In this document: piece by piece, positions 3,201-15,045 of the stretch
How the letters are laid out: each line of letters starts with the position of its first letter
Position numbering within the stretch: position 1 is the first letter of the stretch
Assembly (NCBI GenBank): GCA_021805985.1
Contig: JAJZDN010000013.1
Span: 1-64,000 of the forward strand
From: Planctomycetota bacterium
GTDB taxonomy: Bacteria; Planctomycetota; Phycisphaerae; WQYP01
DNA: 64,000 nucleotides
Direction of reading: 5' to 3'
Translations under genes and position numbers: made by a program
Notes under the pieces: model-generated
What the model was told of the DNA's origin: nothing
Databases searched by the model: none
The model's input: only the letters and a program-made list of their open reading frames with translations

Positions 3201-3549
3201 CGGATTCTATCGCACCATACTTGCAGCGGGAGGCAACGGCGCAATTTGCTGGTGGTTCCCTGGCGGCTACCGCTGTGGTGAACGATCTGATTATGGCATC
3301 ATCAACCCTGATCGATCGTGGCGACCGGTCACGTATGTCATCCACCATTTTGCCGCACGGATGGAACGCTCTCGCCCGCTGCCGGTGCCGCGTGTGTGGA
3401 TTCGCATTCAACTCGGTGGCGGCCAATCTGAAAGCAGTATTTACCAAAGTGTCAAGAAAAAATTCTGGGCGGCCTACCAGGCCGGTACTCTGCCCGGATT
3501 AAGGGTAACGTGGACCCACGGCGTCGCGCCAACAGCCCATGCGCGTTAG
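280..3549 (+). CDS. Secreted GH5-like TIM-barrel glycoside hydrolase, large multidomain
   Basis: Large exported protein. A hydrophobic signal segment (LLVLTFLTLW, ending near VCAA) follows a long basic stretch. The start is therefore uncertain: ATG 313 has AAAAGG 6 bases upstream, while ATG 421 gives a normal-length signal peptide. The N-terminal third resembles a ThuA/GATase-like Rossmann domain (HVGIYQSRAPGW). The middle is beta-rich. The C-terminal ~400 residues form a clan-A (GH5/GH2-type) barrel: GKPWYVDGVNFWPE opens it, WEPFWG carries the probable acid/base Glu (codon 2626), and VIYAEYGNS carries the probable nucleophile Glu (codon 3121). The substrate cannot be read from the sequence. 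The neighbours are a beta-helix protein and a beta-mannosidase, so a hemicellulose or pectin-type glycan is likely. Family assignment is by motif only. Confidence 0.75.
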   Translation: MKKSHKVKRMPMAKIATTRRKSSMSNEPLWFSIHPHIIAFSARRKQCMDRCMIMVANWLGGLLVLTFLTLWPSAISPVCAAARNEAALPSHHHHGASRDHVGIYQSRAPGWPKSIASALASRLQAAGMTPVVLSSRQLTHPAMLNARHLSVLILVNPAMIPAGAVAPIQSYIRSSGFLVSLGAPAFTNMEFRLGSRWDTESQALRRIKKIIHNHPMAWPRHARTWKQATSSPTTPSKVDILKTPSRLPPSVMYGYKFRFHLNGWCNFRSPPITVPAQNHYTVFWAKGGPHARQLDIECDEHDGSRWIAVVALRSYWTRYVLPETAFRAWPNPPVAGRFFPGDHLHLPHATTISFGLANGFTMEKNGRSYTIDVAGVGTARLPAKDSQSFAMALASKFHSAPPMIHMISPAYKLFPVTDMHTLVVDPRQAIAPRTALPTPSSTMGLYPRAQATGLDQHLAMRYVPLLNCLGDKGRFVAIAAALELPSTAARTGQGSTLSIPITDGAFFASPAVQDWLTAVIKRVQQGLYLAEGGAERYATFGNTPLQFGAVVNNKGPLPQAVRVVSTFTTAHGKIAYQHTFTGIIRPNSAQKFASSWTPPIPAHWQRVYQVTTVLEKQKAGTENVVDHLVGSLRVLSLHGQRHFVTARNGLLYLHGKPWYVDGVNFWPESSMAQENGSLYQHWSSRQSYDPQTVERNLRDVKAIGFNTISIPFDRGDDPWNVLDVLARARALGLHVNLSITGVDGLGGEDGGPGKFNFKAVQNLISELHLTSNATLFAYDIAWEPFWGRYNARRRLDPQWRMWIIHHYGSVKHAQEVWHFPVPRRRGHVTNPREAQIMAGRHSKAAAMVLAYHRFLSALLARTYGHAIRLIHKTDPHHIVSFRMSMAGYPKEPPDVYYAFTALSRLVDMFEPEAYGHLMSQSPRRVRRAAFTIQYARAVNATLPVIYAEYGNSQWNNAQDSESSTAAKRTAKIYAGFYRTILAAGGNGAICWWFPGGYRCGERSDYGIINPDRSWRPVTYVIHHFAARMERSRPLPVPRVWIRIQLGGGQSESSIYQSVKKKFWAAYQAGTLPGLRVTWTHGVAPTAHAR

Positions 3550-3590
3550 TGGCCAGGTATGACGTTCTCCTTTCTTTTGCAGGATCGCTG

Positions 3591-5504
3591 ATGAATAACA
3601 GGAGTTTTAAATTGGTTAAATCTTGGTTCAAATTTTTACTGTTCTACGGAAGTATCTTCGTTGGTGCTGCTACCGTATCGGCCGCCAGCGCCTCTGCGCA
3701 AGCGGGATTACTCGGGCCGGCCAACCCCGCCGCACTTATGCCGGCCATTATGCATGCCTACCATTCCGGCCGTGGGCAAATTGTCATTCCGCCTGGGATA
3801 TACAAACTTCCGGAACCGCGCGGCGGATTTTATCTGGCTTTTGACCACCTTAAAAACTTCCGTATCATCGGAAAAGCGGTAACATTATTGCGTGCCGATC
3901 CCACTAAAGGCGGAATTAACTTTACGGATTGCCGCCATGTGACACTCGAAGGCATCACCCTGCGATGCGATCCAATTCCGTACACGCAGGGACGAATCCT
4001 CAAAGTAAATCGCCAGCAACATTATGTCGATGTCCGCATCAATGCAGGTTACCGCGCGGATTTGACCAATACCTCCCAGTTCAGCAGCGAACCGCCCAGT
4101 TGTACCATTTTCAATCCGCAAACATTCCGCATCATGTCAGGCACCCAAGATATCAACTCCAGCAAGGTAACAAAAATCGGACCGCGAGAGTTTCGTATCT
4201 ACGCCCATAAAACCCGGCCGTTTCTTGGCTCGGCGCGGGCGGGTGAATTACTGGCGTTTCGCAGTTACATTCGCGAGGACATCGCCCTGGATGGCTGCAG
4301 CGATATGTGTATCCGACACGTAACCATCATGGCCGGAACAGGTTTCTGCTACCATGAAATGGGTGGCGCGGGCAACAACCGCTATATAGATGACTCGATT
4401 GTGTTTCCTCCCAAGCCCCACGGCGCGACTATTCCTCCGCTTAAGGCTTCCAATGCCGACGGCCTGCATAGTTCCATGGCCCGCCGCGGCCCCACTATCA
4501 TCGGGTGTCATTTTGAAGGCACCGGCGACGACGGCATCGCCATTCACGGAACATACAGCATGTTGCAGCACGCCAATGGACGCCATTGGATCGTGCTGCT
4601 GCCGTGGCATTTAAAAAGTTACATTCAGCCCGGCGATCTCCTGAAACTATATAACCCGCATGACGGATTTCTTGGGCAGGGCCGCGCGGTGGCCGTCACG
4701 CTGTTGCCGGATTATCATCCAAAGCGCATCCCGGCTGTCAATATGGGCTTTGATGGTAAGCCACCGCAGTATTGTTATGCTGTCACATTAAATCACCCTG
4801 TTGCGGGCGCGCGGTATGCCGATCGCATCAGTGATACCAACGCCAACGGTTCCGGGTTCATTGTGCGTAACTGTGTCATTCGGAACAACCGTGCGCGGGG
4901 AATGATCATCAAAGGTGACAACGGCGTCATTGAAAATAACATGATAAGTGGCTGCTCGGTTGGCGGAATCGAAGTGGCTCCTGAATTCTGGTGGAATGAA
5001 GCCGGCAGCAGTTGCCACTTGCTTATTGAGGGTAATACCATTAAGCATGTAGGGTACGCCACGCTGAACTTGCCGTATTGTTTTCAAGCCGGTGCCATCA
5101 GCGTCGCTGCCAACACCACTGGGCCCGCGGCGGCCCTGGACCATTCAGGAATTGCCATAGTGGACAACCGATTTGTTGATGAAAACGGAATTAATCTTCT
5201 CCTGGCGGATGCGCAAGATGTATTGGTTTCCGGCAACCGATTCATCAATCCGATGCGCAACGCAATTAATCGCGGAGCCGCTTTTCACTTTGACGCGTCC
5301 AGCCTGGTATGGTTGCAACAGTGTAAAAATATTCTTCTGGCGGACAACCAAGTCGTTAAGCCGGGCGCTGCCATGAAAAAGATCGTCGGCGTGGGGACTC
5401 AGGTAAGCTTGATAAAAGGAGTCGATTCCGGCTTTAAAGTGCGTGCAGTTCCCGCCGGTACGCTGCCAGCCGTGCGGGCAGGCACGGACAGCGCCGGCAG
5501 GTAG
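3591..5504 (+). CDS. Secreted right-handed parallel beta-helix protein (pectate-lyase-like fold)
   Basis: The ATG at 3591 is chosen over the upstream in-frame start at 3510. It follows an AGGA motif, begins just after the preceding gene ends, and starts a clean signal peptide (MNNRSFKLVKSWFKFLLFYG, cleavage after SAQA). The mature protein has an N-terminal pectate-lyase-3-like entry region (GRGQIVIPPGIYKLPEP) and then many short beta-helix coils rich in Asn-x-Ile/Val turns (NCVIRNNRARG, GVIENNMISGC, LLIEGNTIKHVG). This fold covers polysaccharide lyases, GH28 and GH110-type galactosidases. No catalytic residues can be assigned, so lyase versus hydrolase stays open. It sits 41 bases after the GH5-like gene and 128 bases before the GH2 gene, probably in one transcription unit. 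Confidence 0.75.
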   Translation: MNNRSFKLVKSWFKFLLFYGSIFVGAATVSAASASAQAGLLGPANPAALMPAIMHAYHSGRGQIVIPPGIYKLPEPRGGFYLAFDHLKNFRIIGKAVTLLRADPTKGGINFTDCRHVTLEGITLRCDPIPYTQGRILKVNRQQHYVDVRINAGYRADLTNTSQFSSEPPSCTIFNPQTFRIMSGTQDINSSKVTKIGPREFRIYAHKTRPFLGSARAGELLAFRSYIREDIALDGCSDMCIRHVTIMAGTGFCYHEMGGAGNNRYIDDSIVFPPKPHGATIPPLKASNADGLHSSMARRGPTIIGCHFEGTGDDGIAIHGTYSMLQHANGRHWIVLLPWHLKSYIQPGDLLKLYNPHDGFLGQGRAVAVTLLPDYHPKRIPAVNMGFDGKPPQYCYAVTLNHPVAGARYADRISDTNANGSGFIVRNCVIRNNRARGMIIKGDNGVIENNMISGCSVGGIEVAPEFWWNEAGSSCHLLIEGNTIKHVGYATLNLPYCFQAGAISVAANTTGPAAALDHSGIAIVDNRFVDENGINLLLADAQDVLVSGNRFINPMRNAINRGAAFHFDASSLVWLQQCKNILLADNQVVKPGAAMKKIVGVGTQVSLIKGVDSGFKVRAVPAGTLPAVRAGTDSAGR

Positions 5505-5632
5505 GAGTGTCGAAATATCAAAAGTTCGCCCCGTACTCAACTGTGAGTGCTGCCCAGGAGGTTCGCACGTCCGGTGCACCGGACGCCCACAGGTGATACG
5601 ATGACAAGTGTGATGAATTGAAAGGTAATATT

Positions 5633-8281
5633 ATGCAATCCCAAAACATGACGCGGCGCCAACTTTTACAGACCGCAGCCAGTGCTGGCGTGATCGCAGC
5701 CCTTGCAGGCTGTAGCGCTGATCCGCAGCCGCGCAACGCCATGGCATCAGCCACCACAACCTCGGCGCTCTCGCTGGATCTCACCGGTGATACCTGGACC
5801 ATGCACGAAGAGGGTACGACCGAAACGGTCCCCGCCATTGTGCCGGGTGCCACGTACACCGACCTGATGCGCGCGAAGAAAATTCCCGATCCCTATTACC
5901 GGGAAAACAACGGACGAGGGGCCAGGGGCGGCTCAAATGTGTGGACATTTGAATGGGACAAATATATTAGTGAAGTCGATCCTCGGCCAATTCAGTGGGT
6001 GGCTGAAAAAAACTGGATTTACCAGCGCACTTTTCAGGTTTCAGACCAAATGCTCGCAAAGCCGCACGTTGTGCTTAGATGCCATGGCCTGGATACTTTG
6101 GCAAGCATCTGGATAAACGGCGCGTGGATAGGCGATGCGGATAACATGTTCCGAGATTGGGAATTCGACGCCAAGCCGCATTTAAAGGCTGGGTCAAATG
6201 ACATTCGCATCCGCTTTGGTGCCCTGACGCACTCGCCCTATGTGGAAAAAAACCGCACCGCTTATAAAAATGCGCATGGCATTGATTTGAGCAATCCGCG
6301 ATCATGGATTCGCAAAGGACCCTATATGTGGGGTTGGGATTGGTGCCGCCCTTTGCTCACGCAGGGAATATGGAAGCCTATTGAAATTGTCGCTTACGAT
6401 GCGAAGATTACTGATCTGGGCATTATCCAGCATCATCTGGATTCCGGCGCGGTCCGGCTGGATATTCAAACTACGGTGGACGGTACTGACGATGGTGCCT
6501 ACATCACCTCTCGTGTGCTATTTGATAATAAGGTCGTCGCAACCGCCTCTGCACCGGTGGTGCACGGGGCCGCCCGATGTAATGCTCAAATTAATCATCC
6601 GCAACTTTGGTGGCCCAATGGCATGGGCGATCATCCGCTATACACCGTAGAATCCCACCTTCACCAGCCCACCGGCGGAGTTGTGGAGATACTCGCTTCC
6701 ACCACCAGAGCTATAGATTCCGCCAGCCGCCGTATTGGGCTGCGAAAAGTGGATGTGTTGCCGCCGAAAGATGGCGTCGCCATGCACGTTCAAATCAACG
6801 GCGTACCTGTATTTGTCAAAGGAGCCGACTGGATTCCTGCTGACAACATCCCCACACGCGTAACACCCGACATGATTCGCTGGTTCATGCACAAAGCGGT
6901 GGAGTGTAATTTTAATTTTATCCGTCTCTGGGGCGGCGGATATTATGAGCAGGATGAACTCTTTGATCTCTGTGATGAACTGGGCCTCATGCTGCAGTTT
7001 GAGTTCAAGTTTGCCAACACTGTCTATCCGGTTCAGGATCAAAAGTGGATGGATAACCTGCAAATTGAAATTGACCAGCAGGTCCGCCGCTGCCGCAATC
7101 ATCCCGCGATTGTGATCTGGAGCGGCAATAACGAGATTAAGGATTTCAAAGGATATTACCATTTATTCGGGGATGTCATCGGTGGCGCGGTCCGCCGGCT
7201 TGTACCTGGCGCTTTCTATGAGGTCGGCAGCGGTGCCGCCGGAAGTGGGGACATCCACACTTGGACGGTCTGGCATAACATGGCCCCGTTTTCCCAATAT
7301 CGCACCGTTGAAGGTTTTGTAACCGAGTTCGGCCTGCAATCGTTCCCTGTTCCTATGACCGTAGATTCTTATACCGACGCCTCAGACCGTACAAATCTCC
7401 ATTCACGTGTTATGCGATTCCACTCCTGTGATGGAAGCGAACATGGCATTGGGGATATCATCCGGTACAACACCATGTATTTTGGACGGACGCCCGATAA
7501 TTTCGATGATACACTCTGGCTTTCCCAGATCATGCAGGCTTATGGAATTCGCTATGGGGTGGAGCATTGGCGGCGCGATATGCCGCGCTCGATGGCTTCC
7601 ACAATTTGGCAGTTCAATGATTCCTGGCCTGGCCCTACATGGTCCATGACAGATTACTATCGTCGTTGTAAAGCCCTCCAGTACCAGTCAAAGCATTTCT
7701 TTGCCCCGATTCTGGTTAGTGGCATACCGGATCCGAAAACCGGGATAGCGGAAATATACATTACCAGTGATCGACAGAAAGATGTCGCCGGAGATCTGCG
7801 ATGGTGTGTCACTGATTTAGCCGGAAAAATCCTCAAGCAAGGCAGTATTTCTGTGGCCATCGCCGCCCGTACCAGCCGCCTCGCGCACTCTCTGGACCTT
7901 TCTGATCTGATTCACGCTCACGGAGCCGCCAATATGCTGATTTGGCCCGAAGTCCGTATCGGCAGTGCAGTTGTAGCGGACAATGTTTTATTTTTCGGTC
8001 GCCCTGTCGATTTGAAGCTCCATGAGCCTCAATTTGCAATCCAAATCAGCGGGGCTGGAAAACATTATCACCTTCGGCTCGATGCCAATGCTCCGGCGCT
8101 GTGGGTGTGGGCCAATATAAAACATAGGTCCGCCGCCTATTCCGACAATTTTGTTGCCCTGCGCCCCGGCCGTACCGCAATGCTTGAAATTACCTTGGAT
8201 GCCCCCATGGCCTATGGAGAATTTCATCGCAACCTTGAGGTGCGGAGCATTCATGATCTAGCCCCTGATATGCGGGCGTAA
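5633..8281 (+). CDS. GH2 beta-mannosidase, predicted Tat-exported lipoprotein
   Basis: Exo-acting beta-mannosidase of family GH2. The start is ATG 5633, preceded by GAAAGG; an in-frame TTG lies at 5618. The N-terminus carries a twin-arginine motif (MTRRQLLQTAAS) followed by a lipobox (ALAGC), so the enzyme is probably folded before export and lipid-anchored. GH2 domain order is visible: a sugar-binding jelly roll (RTFQVSD, GLDTLASIWING), an Ig-like domain, and the TIM barrel. The acid/base is Glu501 in WSGNNEIKD and the nucleophile is Glu565 in GFVTEFGLQSFP. RLWGGGYYE and WQFNDSWPG are classic beta-mannosidase signatures. At 882 residues it is normal length. It would release mannose from the non-reducing ends of manno-oligosaccharides, consistent with the two hydrolase-like genes before it. 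Confidence 0.9.
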   Translation: MQSQNMTRRQLLQTAASAGVIAALAGCSADPQPRNAMASATTTSALSLDLTGDTWTMHEEGTTETVPAIVPGATYTDLMRAKKIPDPYYRENNGRGARGGSNVWTFEWDKYISEVDPRPIQWVAEKNWIYQRTFQVSDQMLAKPHVVLRCHGLDTLASIWINGAWIGDADNMFRDWEFDAKPHLKAGSNDIRIRFGALTHSPYVEKNRTAYKNAHGIDLSNPRSWIRKGPYMWGWDWCRPLLTQGIWKPIEIVAYDAKITDLGIIQHHLDSGAVRLDIQTTVDGTDDGAYITSRVLFDNKVVATASAPVVHGAARCNAQINHPQLWWPNGMGDHPLYTVESHLHQPTGGVVEILASTTRAIDSASRRIGLRKVDVLPPKDGVAMHVQINGVPVFVKGADWIPADNIPTRVTPDMIRWFMHKAVECNFNFIRLWGGGYYEQDELFDLCDELGLMLQFEFKFANTVYPVQDQKWMDNLQIEIDQQVRRCRNHPAIVIWSGNNEIKDFKGYYHLFGDVIGGAVRRLVPGAFYEVGSGAAGSGDIHTWTVWHNMAPFSQYRTVEGFVTEFGLQSFPVPMTVDSYTDASDRTNLHSRVMRFHSCDGSEHGIGDIIRYNTMYFGRTPDNFDDTLWLSQIMQAYGIRYGVEHWRRDMPRSMASTIWQFNDSWPGPTWSMTDYYRRCKALQYQSKHFFAPILVSGIPDPKTGIAEIYITSDRQKDVAGDLRWCVTDLAGKILKQGSISVAIAARTSRLAHSLDLSDLIHAHGAANMLIWPEVRIGSAVVADNVLFFGRPVDLKLHEPQFAIQISGAGKHYHLRLDANAPALWVWANIKHRSAAYSDNFVALRPGRTAMLEITLDAPMAYGEFHRNLEVRSIHDLAPDMRA

Positions 8282-9407: not shown

Positions 9408-10868
9408 ATGCCAAGAAGCGTAAATCGCCTGCGGCCCACTTGGTGGAAGTATTGCGTCATTATTGTGCCGACGCTTGTAATTGTAGGGTTGGCGGGGCTT
9501 TATTACTGCCATGGCAAACAGCCCCGGGGCAAGCTGAACCTTATTATGCCCGCAGCGCCCAGTACTGCCGCACCCGAACCAGCGCAGTTATCTGCATGGA
9601 TACACAGTTTGATCAGCCCCGATGCATCCGCACGGGAAAATGGCATTAAGCAACTGATTGCCGCCGGTGACGTCGCTCTGCCGGCATTGGAAAAAAGCTT
9701 CAAGGGACGCACGACACCGCCGCTCCGCCGGAGGTTGCGTTCAATCCGTGCGGCCATCGCTCGAGTGGACCTGTTGCGAGGGCCATTGGTTACCTTGAAG
9801 TTACACCATGCAACCTTGCGGCAGGTAATTGACCGCCTTTGCATTCCCATGGGCATCCACCCGGAGTTCTATCCGCTTTTTGCCTCCGGAGCGCCAATCC
9901 CTCCGATGTTTGATCATCTATTCCTTTCCGTTGATGTTCAACGCCAACCATTTTGGGCAGTTGTCCGTCGGCTGGCCCAGGTGACCGGCGTAAGCCCCGG
10001 ACCGGGCTTGTATAACCAGGGGCTAAATTTTTGTAGCGGCATAGTCAGCGACGCGTTGGAAACTAATCCGGTAGATGTATCGGGGCCGTTGATGTTCGTG
10101 CTGCAGTACCCAGATGAACGGTGGGGCGGAGGTAAGCCAATGGGCATGGCGGGACCGGCTATTCAGCCCAACCCCGGGCAGATCCAACTAATCCTCGATA
10201 TGCTCTGGTGCCCGGCGGGCAACCGCTTAAGCCGTCTGGGACTTCTGCGGCATCTGAAGGCTGTGGACAGCGCCGGAAATTCCATTCTTCTTTTTAAGAA
10301 AGCTTTTCAGCAGCAGTTCAGGCAATGGAATCAAAACAGACAAGTAGAATTCAATGGCTCTCTTGTATTGAGGCAGCCGAAGGCGGGAATGAAGACCATT
10401 GCAATGATTCGTGGAAGTGTGCCCATCGTCATGTCTTTCGATCCAGTGACGCGACAGATTAACAATTTGGCGTCGGGTAAAGCTTCTCTGGACATCAACG
10501 GGTTGCATTTCGAATTTGGTAAACCCAAGCCGGCACAGGCGGCCGGGACAATTTCTTCCGTCCGGGCGTGGACCGTGCCGGTGACAGTCCGCACGAATAT
10601 GCTTGATCAGCGAAGTTCGGTGTTGCTCGCCGGGTTCCTGCATAGCCTGCACAATAACAACGAACAAGTGCTGATGTTTAAAAGTGCAACCGGGCAATAC
10701 CACGGATTCCCACCGAATCCCCAGGCCAGTGATACTGGGCCTCCTTACCACTACAGCTTTGAAATCGACGGGCCGGCCCCTATTTCAGCACGGTTGAGAC
10801 TATACCGTCAAAGATCAGTAAAACTGAATGTTCCCTTTGAGTTTAGAAATGTACCGGTACCGCAGTAA
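9408..10868 (+). CDS. Exported HEAT/STN-like repeat-unit protein, single unit
   Basis: Function unknown. Start ATG 9408 is preceded by a G-rich Shine-Dalgarno (GTGGGGG); an in-frame upstream start at 9273 is less likely. One N-terminal membrane segment (CVIIVPTLVIVGLAGLYY) suggests an anchored or exported protein. The rest is one copy of a unit also found three times in the next gene. It begins at Trp64 (AWIHSL) with a ~50-residue helical HEAT-like stretch (IKQLIAAGDVALPALEKSF). Then comes GPLVTLKLHHATLRQVIDRL...VDVQRQPFWAVVRRLA, resembling the beta-alpha-beta STN (secretin/TonB short N-terminal) fold. A long beta-rich part ends in the tag NVPFEFRNVPVPQ. Family resemblance to STN is by pattern only. 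The gene lies 28 bases upstream of its three-unit paralogue, probably co-transcribed. Confidence 0.7.
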   Translation: MPRSVNRLRPTWWKYCVIIVPTLVIVGLAGLYYCHGKQPRGKLNLIMPAAPSTAAPEPAQLSAWIHSLISPDASARENGIKQLIAAGDVALPALEKSFKGRTTPPLRRRLRSIRAAIARVDLLRGPLVTLKLHHATLRQVIDRLCIPMGIHPEFYPLFASGAPIPPMFDHLFLSVDVQRQPFWAVVRRLAQVTGVSPGPGLYNQGLNFCSGIVSDALETNPVDVSGPLMFVLQYPDERWGGGKPMGMAGPAIQPNPGQIQLILDMLWCPAGNRLSRLGLLRHLKAVDSAGNSILLFKKAFQQQFRQWNQNRQVEFNGSLVLRQPKAGMKTIAMIRGSVPIVMSFDPVTRQINNLASGKASLDINGLHFEFGKPKPAQAAGTISSVRAWTVPVTVRTNMLDQRSSVLLAGFLHSLHNNNEQVLMFKSATGQYHGFPPNPQASDTGPPYHYSFEIDGPAPISARLRLYRQRSVKLNVPFEFRNVPVPQ

Positions 10869-10896
10869 TAAAGGTATGCGTGTAAGGAGAATCTAA

Positions 10897-13800
10897 ATGC
10901 CGATAGCAGGAATCCGCGTCCGTAGAACTGTCATCGCAGCAACCGTATTGGCTGCAGTGTTTACTGCTGGCTCGTGGGGCCACGCAGCCAGCCTAATTGT
11001 TAAGCAGGTTTCTGCGCCACTTTCCAAGCTCCAATCCATTAACATGCTGCCCGCCTCGCCCCAGCCTACGCCCACAGGAGTGCAAATTTCTACGTGGATT
11101 CACGAACTGAAAGGCGGAACGGCCCTTGCGCAAAAGTACGCCAATCAACATCTGGTCGCGGCCGGTGATGCTGCCACGCGCATGCTCGCGGCGGCTCAAA
11201 GCAAGGCAGCGTCCACGCCAGCCGCCAAGCGACTCTGGCACGTGCTTCATGCCATTGCCCTGGCCGATGCGTTGCACGGCCCGCTGATCACCCTGCGCAG
11301 TAAAAGTTGTACGCTGCGCAGCTTGCTGAAGTCTATCTGTTCAAGTGCCGGAATGCGGTGCCAATTGCCCAGAAATTGCAAACGTCTTTCAGAACGTTTT
11401 GCGGTCAATATCCAGCGGCAGTTATTCTGGAACGTATTATTGCGTTTAGCAAACGCGACTGGTATAAGCCCGTCGCAGGGAGACGTGCACAGCCTGTTCT
11501 TCAGCAGGCACGGCGTATTTAGCAATGGAGCCCGGGTTGCGGTAAATGGCGCATTTGCGGAGGTTATTGAATCCGCGTCGCTAAAATCGGCGAAAAACCG
11601 CACCAAATCGGGCCAAAAGGGTTACGATTGCCAACTCAACTGCAATACACTCTGGGTCCCCACGAAAAAGGCCTTTGTTCAGGTCGGATCGCCGAAAAAC
11701 GTGTCGGCATTAAGCCGCCGAGGACACAGGCTCCCCGCATTCGGCGTCGTGCCAACTCCGGGTTACTACGGCACACCCACCAGGCAGATCATATCCGGTT
11801 ATCCGGGGCCGTTTAACATCGGACCGATTGCTCGCACATCGCATGAAATTGTCAGCCTGGCCATGAATGCACCAGTAGCGGTATCCATGAATCCGGAAAT
11901 TCAGAGCGCCAGTAATCTTAACTCCGGTCGGGCGGAAATTGATGCCGCTGGCATGCGGTTCCTTTTCGGGCGCCCCAGGCCGGCCAAGGGGAAGTGGGGC
12001 GTTACAGTGACTATGATCACCCCACCCTGGTTGGCAAAATCCCTGCCGGTGCGCGCGTTTCTGTCGCGGATGAATTTCTTTTCCCCTAAGCCGTTTGTCT
12101 TTACGACGGCAAACGGCAATCCGATCGCAAATCTAAGCGGACTCAATTGGTATGTTAAGCCGGACCACTATGTATACTTTTTTCCGCTGGCCTCCAAACC
12201 ACATGGAGTCTTCGTCAAAACGTATGGCCACATGGCTGCCGTCAACGTCCCATTTTTATTTAAACATATCTCAATTCCACTGGCTATAAAGTCTTCGTCG
12301 CTGCGTCAGGCCACCCAGCCGCCTATGACTATCCTGCAAGATATAAAGGTGCGGTCTCAGCCACCGGCACCCCTGGTTATCCAGCAGGTGCTAATGCTGG
12401 CGCAACCACATTCGGCGGCAGCCTCCCCGACGCGTGTAGCGAACTGGATTCATGATCTGGGAAGCCAGAATCACTCTGTGCGCGCCGCCGCCATGAAGCA
12501 GCTAAGCCAGGCGGGTGATGCAGCAAAGCCGGCCATTGAAGCAGCCTTGAACGGCTGGACCACGCCCCAAACGCGTCGGGAGATGCAAAAAGTGCTGGGA
12601 GAGATTGCCCAAAGCGATGCGGTACGCGGGCCGCTGGTGACGCTGAAACTCACCGATGCGCCTTTGGCCACCATTCTAAAACAGCTTTGTGCGCAAGCTG
12701 GTTTCTCTGCCGAGTTTGTTGACATCCACCTTCCGATTGACGCACGCCGGCTTACCATAAACGTTCAGCGTCAGCCTTTCTGGAAGGTAATTCACCGCGT
12801 TGCCATGCTCACCGGCGTAAGCCCTGATGGAAATGACTATTTGGGAACGGGATTATTTACCTTTTACCGGCCCGGTGCCTTTGTCCCAGGCACGCCGGTG
12901 TTTGCGCACGGAGCGCTCTTGCTGGCTGCTCAGAGTTCAGCCATCTCACAGACCTTGAATTTCGATGCGGCACCCGGCGACCGCGCGGTGGGCGGATTCA
13001 GCTTGAACATCCAAGGTTTTTGGGCACTGGGTAACACCCAGATCGTCAAGCTTGGGCCGGTCACATTTAGCCGCGCCGTTGACAATCAAGGCAGGTCCCT
13101 CTTGACCTCCCCAACGGCACCGGCGGAGGCGGCCTTCCCTGCGGCAAAATATGAATTTTCCTTCGGCCCCGCTTTGGATTGGCCTTTTCCCGATAGTAGT
13201 ATGATTCGTGATCTGCAAGGTGAACTGCCCATCACTTTGGCCGTCGCACCACGCCTTCGGCAAGTCGGCTCTTTGAACCGTGGAAAAGCGTTCATACAGG
13301 ACGGCGGCTTGCGTATCCGTATCGGCAAGCCAAACGGAGTCGTCAAAAATGTGTCAGACCCGCGGCACGATATCTGCACCATTACCATAAGCGTCAAGCC
13401 CGGCAGCAACGGGACCGACCCGCCAATATCGAACTTTTTTATGCAATCATTGCCGCAGGGCACATCGTTTGGCTACACCCCCAGCATCGGTGGTGTGTTG
13501 GGCTTTAAAAGTAAAACGGGGCGACAACTATCATGCCGTGTCTGGAAGCAGGGAGATGGTCCGGGTTGGAACTACAAAGTGTATGTTCGTGGCGGACTGC
13601 CGGTGACGGCATGGGCGAAGTTCTACTCCCATTTTGTTCGCGTGCGTATACCGTTTAATTTTCACAACTTGCCGATTCCCGCCAGTTCCGGCACGGTGAT
13701 AAAACGTATGGCCGCGCCAAGCCCCAAAAACTCCCACCTTTTGCATCCCGCGGCGCTTACGATGCTGGCTGTGCCCGGCCCTGTGGTCTCAAAGTCGCAG

Positions 13801-15045
13801 ATCTCCCGGTGGATACACCAGGTAGTCGACAGTGCGCCGGGCCGCCAGACCGCGGCAATGCGGCATTTAATTTCCGCCGGTAATTCCGCCGTTCCGCTAC
13901 TCCAAAGCGAGCTACGGCACGCCGCTGATCCATCGGAGCGCCATCAAGTTTTAGTCCTTCTCGATGCCATCGCCGCCAACCACGACCTGCGTGGCCCGCT
14001 GGTTTCTCTGAATTTGAAACACGCATCCGTCCGCACGGCCCTTACCCGACTTTGTTCGCAAGTCGGCATCCTACCCTATTACAATCAATCATTGTTGTCG
14101 CCCAGCATGACGTTCAACATCCGCCGTCAACCTTTTTGGAAGGTGGTTCAGCGCATCGCCGACATCACGAATATTGGCCCAACCGGCTATCTATACAATA
14201 ATAATCGCCTGCAATTTGGCCACCAAAACCTTTTTTCCCGCGACGTTCCCATCGTAGTTCATGGGGCGTGCGTGCTGGCCATACAGTCTCTTGCGCGCTA
14301 TCAGAATAAGTGGCTAACCAAGGTGGATCCGGGGAATAAAAAACGAAACTTTACAGCAAGCTGCTTCGTGTTATGGACCTCGACGCGAAAACAAATCCTT
14401 GAACAGGTCGGGGGTTGGCATGCGAAAGAGGTGGTCACCGATTCTCATGGAAAAGTATTAATGAATGCTGCCCTGAAGCCCCCGCAAAATACCTCGCCGC
14501 GTAAGCGCAGTGAGGTCCTGTTTCCGTTTCAACTTCCTTTGCACTGGCCGCCACCTGGTTCCGCGGCCTTGGCTTTGCGAGGCAATTTACGCGTGTATCT
14601 GTCCAGTGATATACAAACCATGCATCTTAGAAGCTTGAAGCTTGGTGGCACCGCCTTGACCGATGATGGCATGACGCTGAAATTTAATAAGTTGCAGCCG
14701 ATTCCCGGCGGCTGGAAAATTCGCCTGGACATCGGTATGACCCAGAACTTCTCCTACCACGGAAAAACCAGTCACTGGCTGGCCTTCGCGCAGATTCCAA
14801 TTGAACATTGCTTTACAAAAAATCTTTTTGGAGGCAAAGAATTCACTTTGTATAACGCCGCGGGTCAGCCCCTGCGCATTACCAGCCATATCGGCGGATC
14901 ACGGACGAGCCGCGGGTGGGGATTCTACCGTTACACTCTGAATATCGCCGGCTCCAAGCCCCAAAGCGCCACCATAAAATTCTTCACCCGCACAATCTTT
15001 ACCAAAGTCCCCTTTGACTTCAAAAATTTGCCGGTCCCGCGATAA
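10897..15045 (+). CDS. Exported HEAT/STN-like repeat-unit protein, three tandem units
   Basis: Function unknown, 1382 residues. Strong ribosome site (AAGGAG, 9 bases before ATG) and a signal peptide (VIAATVLAAVFTAGSWGHAA). The mature protein is three tandem copies of the unit in the preceding gene, opening at Trp67 (TWIHEL), Trp517 (NWIHDL) and Trp972 (RWIHQV), so the period is about 450 residues. Each copy has: a WIH start; a HEAT-like pair of helices with AGDAA/AGNSA; a GPLxxLxxK strand; an STN-like fold with the hallmark NIQRQLFW / NVQRQPFW / NIRRQPFW; a variable beta-rich section; and a closing PFLFKHISIP / PFNFHNLPIP / PFDFKNLPVP. Unit 1 has diverged most (loss of Val/Pro around the hallmark). 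No catalytic motif is visible, so a structural or binding role at the envelope is the simplest guess. Confidence 0.72.
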   Translation: MPIAGIRVRRTVIAATVLAAVFTAGSWGHAASLIVKQVSAPLSKLQSINMLPASPQPTPTGVQISTWIHELKGGTALAQKYANQHLVAAGDAATRMLAAAQSKAASTPAAKRLWHVLHAIALADALHGPLITLRSKSCTLRSLLKSICSSAGMRCQLPRNCKRLSERFAVNIQRQLFWNVLLRLANATGISPSQGDVHSLFFSRHGVFSNGARVAVNGAFAEVIESASLKSAKNRTKSGQKGYDCQLNCNTLWVPTKKAFVQVGSPKNVSALSRRGHRLPAFGVVPTPGYYGTPTRQIISGYPGPFNIGPIARTSHEIVSLAMNAPVAVSMNPEIQSASNLNSGRAEIDAAGMRFLFGRPRPAKGKWGVTVTMITPPWLAKSLPVRAFLSRMNFFSPKPFVFTTANGNPIANLSGLNWYVKPDHYVYFFPLASKPHGVFVKTYGHMAAVNVPFLFKHISIPLAIKSSSLRQATQPPMTILQDIKVRSQPPAPLVIQQVLMLAQPHSAAASPTRVANWIHDLGSQNHSVRAAAMKQLSQAGDAAKPAIEAALNGWTTPQTRREMQKVLGEIAQSDAVRGPLVTLKLTDAPLATILKQLCAQAGFSAEFVDIHLPIDARRLTINVQRQPFWKVIHRVAMLTGVSPDGNDYLGTGLFTFYRPGAFVPGTPVFAHGALLLAAQSSAISQTLNFDAAPGDRAVGGFSLNIQGFWALGNTQIVKLGPVTFSRAVDNQGRSLLTSPTAPAEAAFPAAKYEFSFGPALDWPFPDSSMIRDLQGELPITLAVAPRLRQVGSLNRGKAFIQDGGLRIRIGKPNGVVKNVSDPRHDICTITISVKPGSNGTDPPISNFFMQSLPQGTSFGYTPSIGGVLGFKSKTGRQLSCRVWKQGDGPGWNYKVYVRGGLPVTAWAKFYSHFVRVRIPFNFHNLPIPASSGTVIKRMAAPSPKNSHLLHPAALTMLAVPGPVVSKSQISRWIHQVVDSAPGRQTAAMRHLISAGNSAVPLLQSELRHAADPSERHQVLVLLDAIAANHDLRGPLVSLNLKHASVRTALTRLCSQVGILPYYNQSLLSPSMTFNIRRQPFWKVVQRIADITNIGPTGYLYNNNRLQFGHQNLFSRDVPIVVHGACVLAIQSLARYQNKWLTKVDPGNKKRNFTASCFVLWTSTRKQILEQVGGWHAKEVVTDSHGKVLMNAALKPPQNTSPRKRSEVLFPFQLPLHWPPPGSAALALRGNLRVYLSSDIQTMHLRSLKLGGTALTDDGMTLKFNKLQPIPGGWKIRLDIGMTQNFSYHGKTSHWLAFAQIPIEHCFTKNLFGGKEFTLYNAAGQPLRITSHIGGSRTSRGWGFYRYTLNIAGSKPQSATIKFFTRTIFTKVPFDFKNLPVPR

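Follow-up and report, generated by a model that had tools for sequence, protein, structure and literature searches.

An exported module of predicted HEAT-like, N0 and Ig-like parts in adjacent one-unit and three-unit genes of a planctomycete

Planctomycete cell envelopes are unusual, and their component parts are poorly understood. The window, i.e., the whole stretch of 64,000 nucleotides of Planctomycetota DNA that was analysed, contains two neighbouring genes on the + strand; 28 nt separate the gene 1 stop from the gene 2 start. The first encodes one copy, and the second three copies, of a unit of about 420 residues. This arrangement raises the question of what the unit is, how three copies came to lie in one chain, and whether the unit is linked to secretins or TonB receptors or serves the envelope in another way. 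The features of the locus are collected in Table 1.

Table 1. Features of the one-unit and three-unit genes, in window coordinates
Feature	Positions	Strand	Basis
Gene 1, one-unit, 486 aa, N-terminal hydrophobic segment (signal or signal-anchor)	9408..10868	+	ORF, translation
Gene 1 pre-unit hydrophobic motif LNLIMPAAP	9534..9560	+	motif pattern count, sequence read directly
Unit A, WIH opening to PFEFRNVPVP tag	9597..10865	+	profile match E 1e-168 (profile includes unit A)
Gene 2, three-unit, 1382 aa, N-terminal signal peptide	10897..15045	+	ORF, translation
Gene 2 probable signal peptide, end GHA|AS	10897..10989	+	sequence read directly
Pre-unit motif SINMLPAS, ahead of unit B1	11035..11058	+	motif pattern count
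Unit B1, orthologous to a stand-alone one-unit gene of sister genus g2	11095..12279	+	BLAST, tree
Pre-unit motif VLMLAQP, ahead of unit B2	12388..12408	+	motif pattern count
Unit B2, modelled unit	12445..13680	+	BLAST, AlphaFold model
Unit B2 HEAT-like helices, four, model residues 13-79	12427..12627	+	AlphaFold model, alphaRep matches
Unit B2 N0/STN-fold domain, model residues 78-161	12622..12873	+	fold matches, own-genome secretin N0 profile match
Unit B2 Ig-like beta domain with inserted strands, model residues 165-432	12883..13686	+	model, fold match 3fbq
Pre-unit motif LTMLAVP, ahead of unit B3	13756..13776	+	sequence read directly; outside stricter pattern
Unit B3	13810..15042	+	BLAST, tree

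The four units open with WIH at residue 64 of the gene 1 product and at residues 67, 517 and 972 of the gene 2 product, as an earlier note on this DNA had reported. All unit pairs align over nearly their full length with 26-30% identity (BLAST, E 1e-29 to 1e-50), and the motifs GPL[VI][TS]L and RQ[PL]FW are present in all four. The closing tag named in the same note is exact in three units (PFEFRNVPVP, PFNFHNLPIP and PFDFKNLPVP), but reads PFLFKHISIP in unit B1. A function of the tag as a C-terminal sorting signal was considered and rejected, as the internal units end in it too; it is thus a structural last strand. An additional feature, absent from the earlier note, is a hydrophobic motif of the [ILV]xM[LP]xxP type located 10-25 residues ahead of each WIH in all four units. 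The strict pattern precedes 32 of 60 clade units, and 0.17% of windows drawn at random from unit bodies contain it, a post hoc statistic, as the motif was first noticed and then counted. It may be a strand that is exchanged, or what is left of the N termini of precursors. The motif is also seen in sister genera.

Both genes encode N-terminal signal sequences (read directly from the translations), in agreement with the earlier description of the module as exported, and no lipobox was seen by eye in either product. Purifying selection acts on gene 1 (dN/dS 0.33 versus the congener copy L057) and on gene 2 (dN/dS 0.29 versus the equally long ortholog in L056, 1382 aa). A fifth unit is located on another contig of the same genome as a single-unit copy (C94:65495-66712). 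The two genes are flanked by an exonuclease gene upstream and by a glycosyltransferase gene and an LpxA-like gene downstream; Rfam gave no match in the window. Also upstream, at 3510-8281, a beta-helix/GLAA-B-type protein and a Tat-signal GH2 mannosidase-like protein are encoded, suggesting glycan degradation. No link between these genes and the units was noticed.

The fold of the unit was assessed with an AlphaFold model of unit B2, built from 39 aligned units (pLDDT 83.6, pTM 0.79). The model consists of HEAT-like helices (residues 13-79), an N0/STN domain (82-159) and a long beta region (165-432). The HEAT-like start proposed in the earlier note is supported by four helices with alphaRep matches, with the Pfam HEAT models scoring below their cut-offs. 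For the middle part, the note had made its reading depend on the presence of an STN fold, and the model contains one: the domain shows the beta-alpha-beta-beta-alpha(-beta) arrangement of N0 (E82-91, H92-102, E106-109, E120-129, H130-141, E155-159). It resembles the N0 domains of PilQ (Z 8.8, 2.0 Å, 76 residues) and MxiD (Z 8.6), and InvG is also matched; as Z-scores of 7-8 are near the background of the structure-comparison tool, the N0 assignment rests on sequence profile evidence as well. In hhalign, the middle segment matches the N0 domain of the genome's own secretin (L113) and its orthologs with a probability of 90 and a score of 33.2, compared with a maximum of 14.9 among 30 column shuffles, while the HEAT and beta segments gave no match to secretin N0. 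The Pfam STN model PF07660 remains below its gathering cut-off (18.5 vs 28.4 bits, E 0.0018).

The beta domain at the unit end, likewise named in the earlier note, is Ig-like in the model and comprises 268 residues. Its best fold match, 3fbq (Z 11.0, 3.2 Å), aligns to just 113 of 269 residues, which indicates large insertions. Foldseek searches with the whole unit and the beta domain returned no match that was both significant and structurally credible, the top rows having TM-scores of 0.1-0.2. In Pfam, neither protein matched the secretin channel domain PF00263 or a TonB-receptor barrel domain. As modelled, the sequence of HEAT-like block, N0/STN domain and Ig-like domain is a new order of known folds.

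The units belong to a real, conserved protein family that is found across Planctomycetota and has no named or described counterpart. No family in Pfam or NCBIfam covers the whole unit, so that the module is rightly called undescribed, and the same holds for ten distant relatives. The titles and abstracts of literature on HEAT/STN proteins in planctomycetes and on DUF1570 contained nothing on the unit family. A HEAT-containing profile mostly caught generic HEAT proteins, and a HEAT-free profile was therefore adopted. At E<=0.001 it finds matches in 143 of 392 Planctomycetota genomes. For the full architecture this count is an upper estimate, since many of the weaker matches are short and STN-only. 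Dozens of matches are full length, mostly single-unit proteins of about 430-530 aa, and many of these relatives end in the strand F-x-[DN]-[ILV]-P-[LM]-P. When relatives of the families f43, f84 and f114 are compared with the window units by hhalign, 389 columns align with a probability of 99.7 and a score of 207 (shuffled maximum 17.5); the beta part alone reaches a probability of 96.8. Among 61 genomes, comprising the window's own and relatives, the unit was detected in 26. The related MAGs may derive from acid mines. A contig search with a narrower unit alignment gave nine loci. The module is thus not limited to the window locus, as single-unit versions are spread throughout the phylum. The 839-aa protein L044 (G006:C316) contains two unit-like stretches that are more diverged; in both, the match begins only in the middle of the profile.

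The history of the three-unit gene differs from the one first assumed. The earlier note regarded the expansion as recent, but the units are 26-30% identical and their positional clades predate the split of two genera. In the tree, units cluster by position and not by species, with B1, B2 and B3 each forming a well-supported clade, and these clades are common to several species and the sister genus. As both genera share them, the expansion is older than their split. The pair of a one-unit and a three-unit gene recurs in the window's genus (G002, G004 and G007); in G007 the third unit is cut by the contig end, and in G003 the contig includes no more of the upstream gene than its end. The sister genus g2 has a two-unit gene, one half of which groups with B2 and the other with B3. 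Located 2-31 nt upstream of it is a separate gene with one unit, which groups with B1 (support 99/99); the tree program flags this join as a meeting of two long branches. The three-unit gene is therefore old and probably arose by fusion of a one-unit gene to a two-unit gene, the simplest account given that the counterpart of B1 is a separate gene directly upstream in g2. A resemblance to the N-terminal regions of separate precursors persists in the linkers within gene 2. Fission in g2 is a possible alternative to fusion. Fusion, as the probable route, would make the tandem version a documented case of a multi-unit envelope protein arising from adjacent genes for exported proteins. In some relatives (L036, L058 and L060), further one-unit genes are present in the same array, giving up to four adjacent family genes.

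The middle domain had led the earlier note to suggest envelope docking or secretion through secretins or TonB receptors. The gene context, examined by a neighbourhood survey and own-genome searches, gives no support to the secretin/TonB link, while the units may have a broader docking function in the envelope. In a specific form of the first suggestion, the N0/STN domain would dock the protein to a secretin or a related secretion or pilus complex, as an accessory or adaptor. The N0 fold and its profile relation to the N0 of the genome's own secretin agree with this, and every checked relative except one incomplete genome encodes at least one secretin. However, none of the 48 inspected neighbourhoods (40 of relatives, seven clade loci and the window) contains a secretin. 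The single secretin of the window's genome lies on contig C50, away from the units, and in this genome and nine relatives the secretin contigs are never unit contigs. Moreover, across the genomes G000-G018, the genera rich in units (g1-g4 and g6) keep one secretin, of a TPR-containing type, compared with 2-6 in copy-poor relatives, canonical ones included, although this contrast may reflect shared ancestry only. Docking to a secretin is therefore considered unlikely.

A different direction is indicated by the neighbourhoods of the relatives. A DUF1570 gene (PF07607, E 1e-30) adjoins the family gene divergently in 20 of the 40 relative loci. These loci belong to the families f43, f84 and f114, and include 17 of 19 loci in the first batch of f43 and f84. 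All 20 DUF1570 neighbours contain HExxH, and the DUF1570 protein is exported. In f84, f110 and f114, 10 loci have a gene for a SurA-like PPIC rotamase downstream of the family gene and in the same orientation. At L173, the family gene had been missed by the gene finder and was located by the HEAT-free profile search. The divergent pair of family gene and exported HExxH DUF1570 gene, often followed by the SurA-like rotamase, is conserved at L163-L180, L183, L187, L197 and L198. As a side reading, this set in the relatives can be regarded as an uncharacterised periplasmic gene set. In two families and at single loci outside them, the association links the unit family genetically with a folding catalyst and a protease-like protein, and it gives a gene set that is concrete and can be tested in culturable planctomycetes.

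The fold, the family and the history of the units were computed, and from here on we infer function and location. N0/STN folds are known from unrelated settings, so that no function follows from the fold by itself. The tentative reading favoured here, a good possibility that stays short of probable, is an exported envelope scaffold that docks partners via its N0 and Ig surfaces, with periplasmic protein handling as the likeliest process in view of the DUF1570 and SurA-like neighbours of single-unit relatives. These neighbours occur only with distant relatives (12-20% identity). The window contains neither of them, and DUF1570 is without a match in the window's genome, so that the functional hint may not carry over. 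The window's own neighbours, the exonuclease, glycosyltransferase and LpxA-like genes, suggest no role in protein handling.

A surface or extracellular protein, structural or adhesive, with tandem Ig-like and HEAT rods outside the cell, would also fit the signal sequences, the tandem repeats and the Ig-like sandwiches. In Foldseek, the beta domain also has weak matches to SdrD-type adhesin domains, which point the same way but have TM-scores near 0.1 and give no evidence of homology. Two observations argue against this location and make it improbable: N0 domains are typical of the periplasmic side of envelope machines, and the relatives have a prolyl isomerase and a DUF1570 protein as conserved neighbours. 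Cell-surface signalling, in which the STN domain would pass a signal on to an anti-sigma factor in the manner of TonB-dependent transducers, has the STN fold in its favour and is very hard to sustain, since no TonB-dependent receptor barrel was found in the genome and no barrel domain in the two proteins; in the window, a sigma/anti-sigma pair was not noticed next to the genes.

In the favoured scaffold reading, each unit would form a rod of three parts, namely a short HEAT-like block, the N0/STN domain and a composite Ig-like domain, most likely located in the periplasm. N0 could serve as a docking or oligomerising surface for a putative partner or for another copy of the protein, as in other envelope machines, and the Ig-like domain might provide a second binding surface. 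Chained units would then offer several docking sites on one chain. The units may help exported proteins to fold or mature, or take part in their quality control. The pre-unit hydrophobic segment may act as an exchanged beta strand, a guess by analogy with DotD and X. citri VirB7. A wider proposal, which we regard as rather doubtful, places the HEAT-N0-Ig family phylum-wide in a periplasmic protein-handling machinery together with the DUF1570 protease-like protein and the SurA-like isomerase; here N0 would have come away from secretins and taken on a new use as a surface for assembly, and multi-unit scaffolds would have arisen by gene fusion in one clade.

Each part of the unit can be compared with known systems. 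The first 70 residues match HEAT/PBS-lyase repeats and alphaRep designs (PF03130, PF13646) in profile and fold; the difference is that the unit has just about two repeats, which score below the Pfam cut-offs and are joined to an N0 and an Ig-like domain. For the Ig-like domain, the closest fold is that of 3fbq, a conserved domain protein of Bacillus anthracis, with 8% identity and the remainder consisting of inserted strands. A weak lead is DUF5643 (PF18705), with a single sub-threshold match in the relative L108 (16.7 of 34 bits, E 0.0074). With the N0/STN domain of secretins (PF07660; GspD, PilQ, InvG/MxiD), the middle domain shares the fold (Z 8.8 to PilQ N0) and the profile relation to the own secretin. 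Unlike in secretins, N0 lies between a HEAT-like block and an Ig-like domain, and no channel domain follows, so that a widespread family carries an interaction domain of secretion channels without the channel. N0 domains outside secretins are known from DotD of the Legionella T4BSS, which binds a partner or oligomerises (PMC2951367), and from X. citri VirB7, which oligomerises via its N0 domain and a flexible N-terminal region (PMC3093366); in both, N-terminal segments contribute to assembly (PMC2951367, PMC3093366). DotD and VirB7 are small type IV secretion lipoproteins, whereas the units described here have HEAT-like and Ig-like domains and occur in tandem, and no type IV secretion context was noticed. 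Like DotD and VirB7, the unit combines export and a channel-less N0 domain with a preceding flexible stretch that contains a short segment, functional in these two proteins (PMC2951367, PMC3093366).
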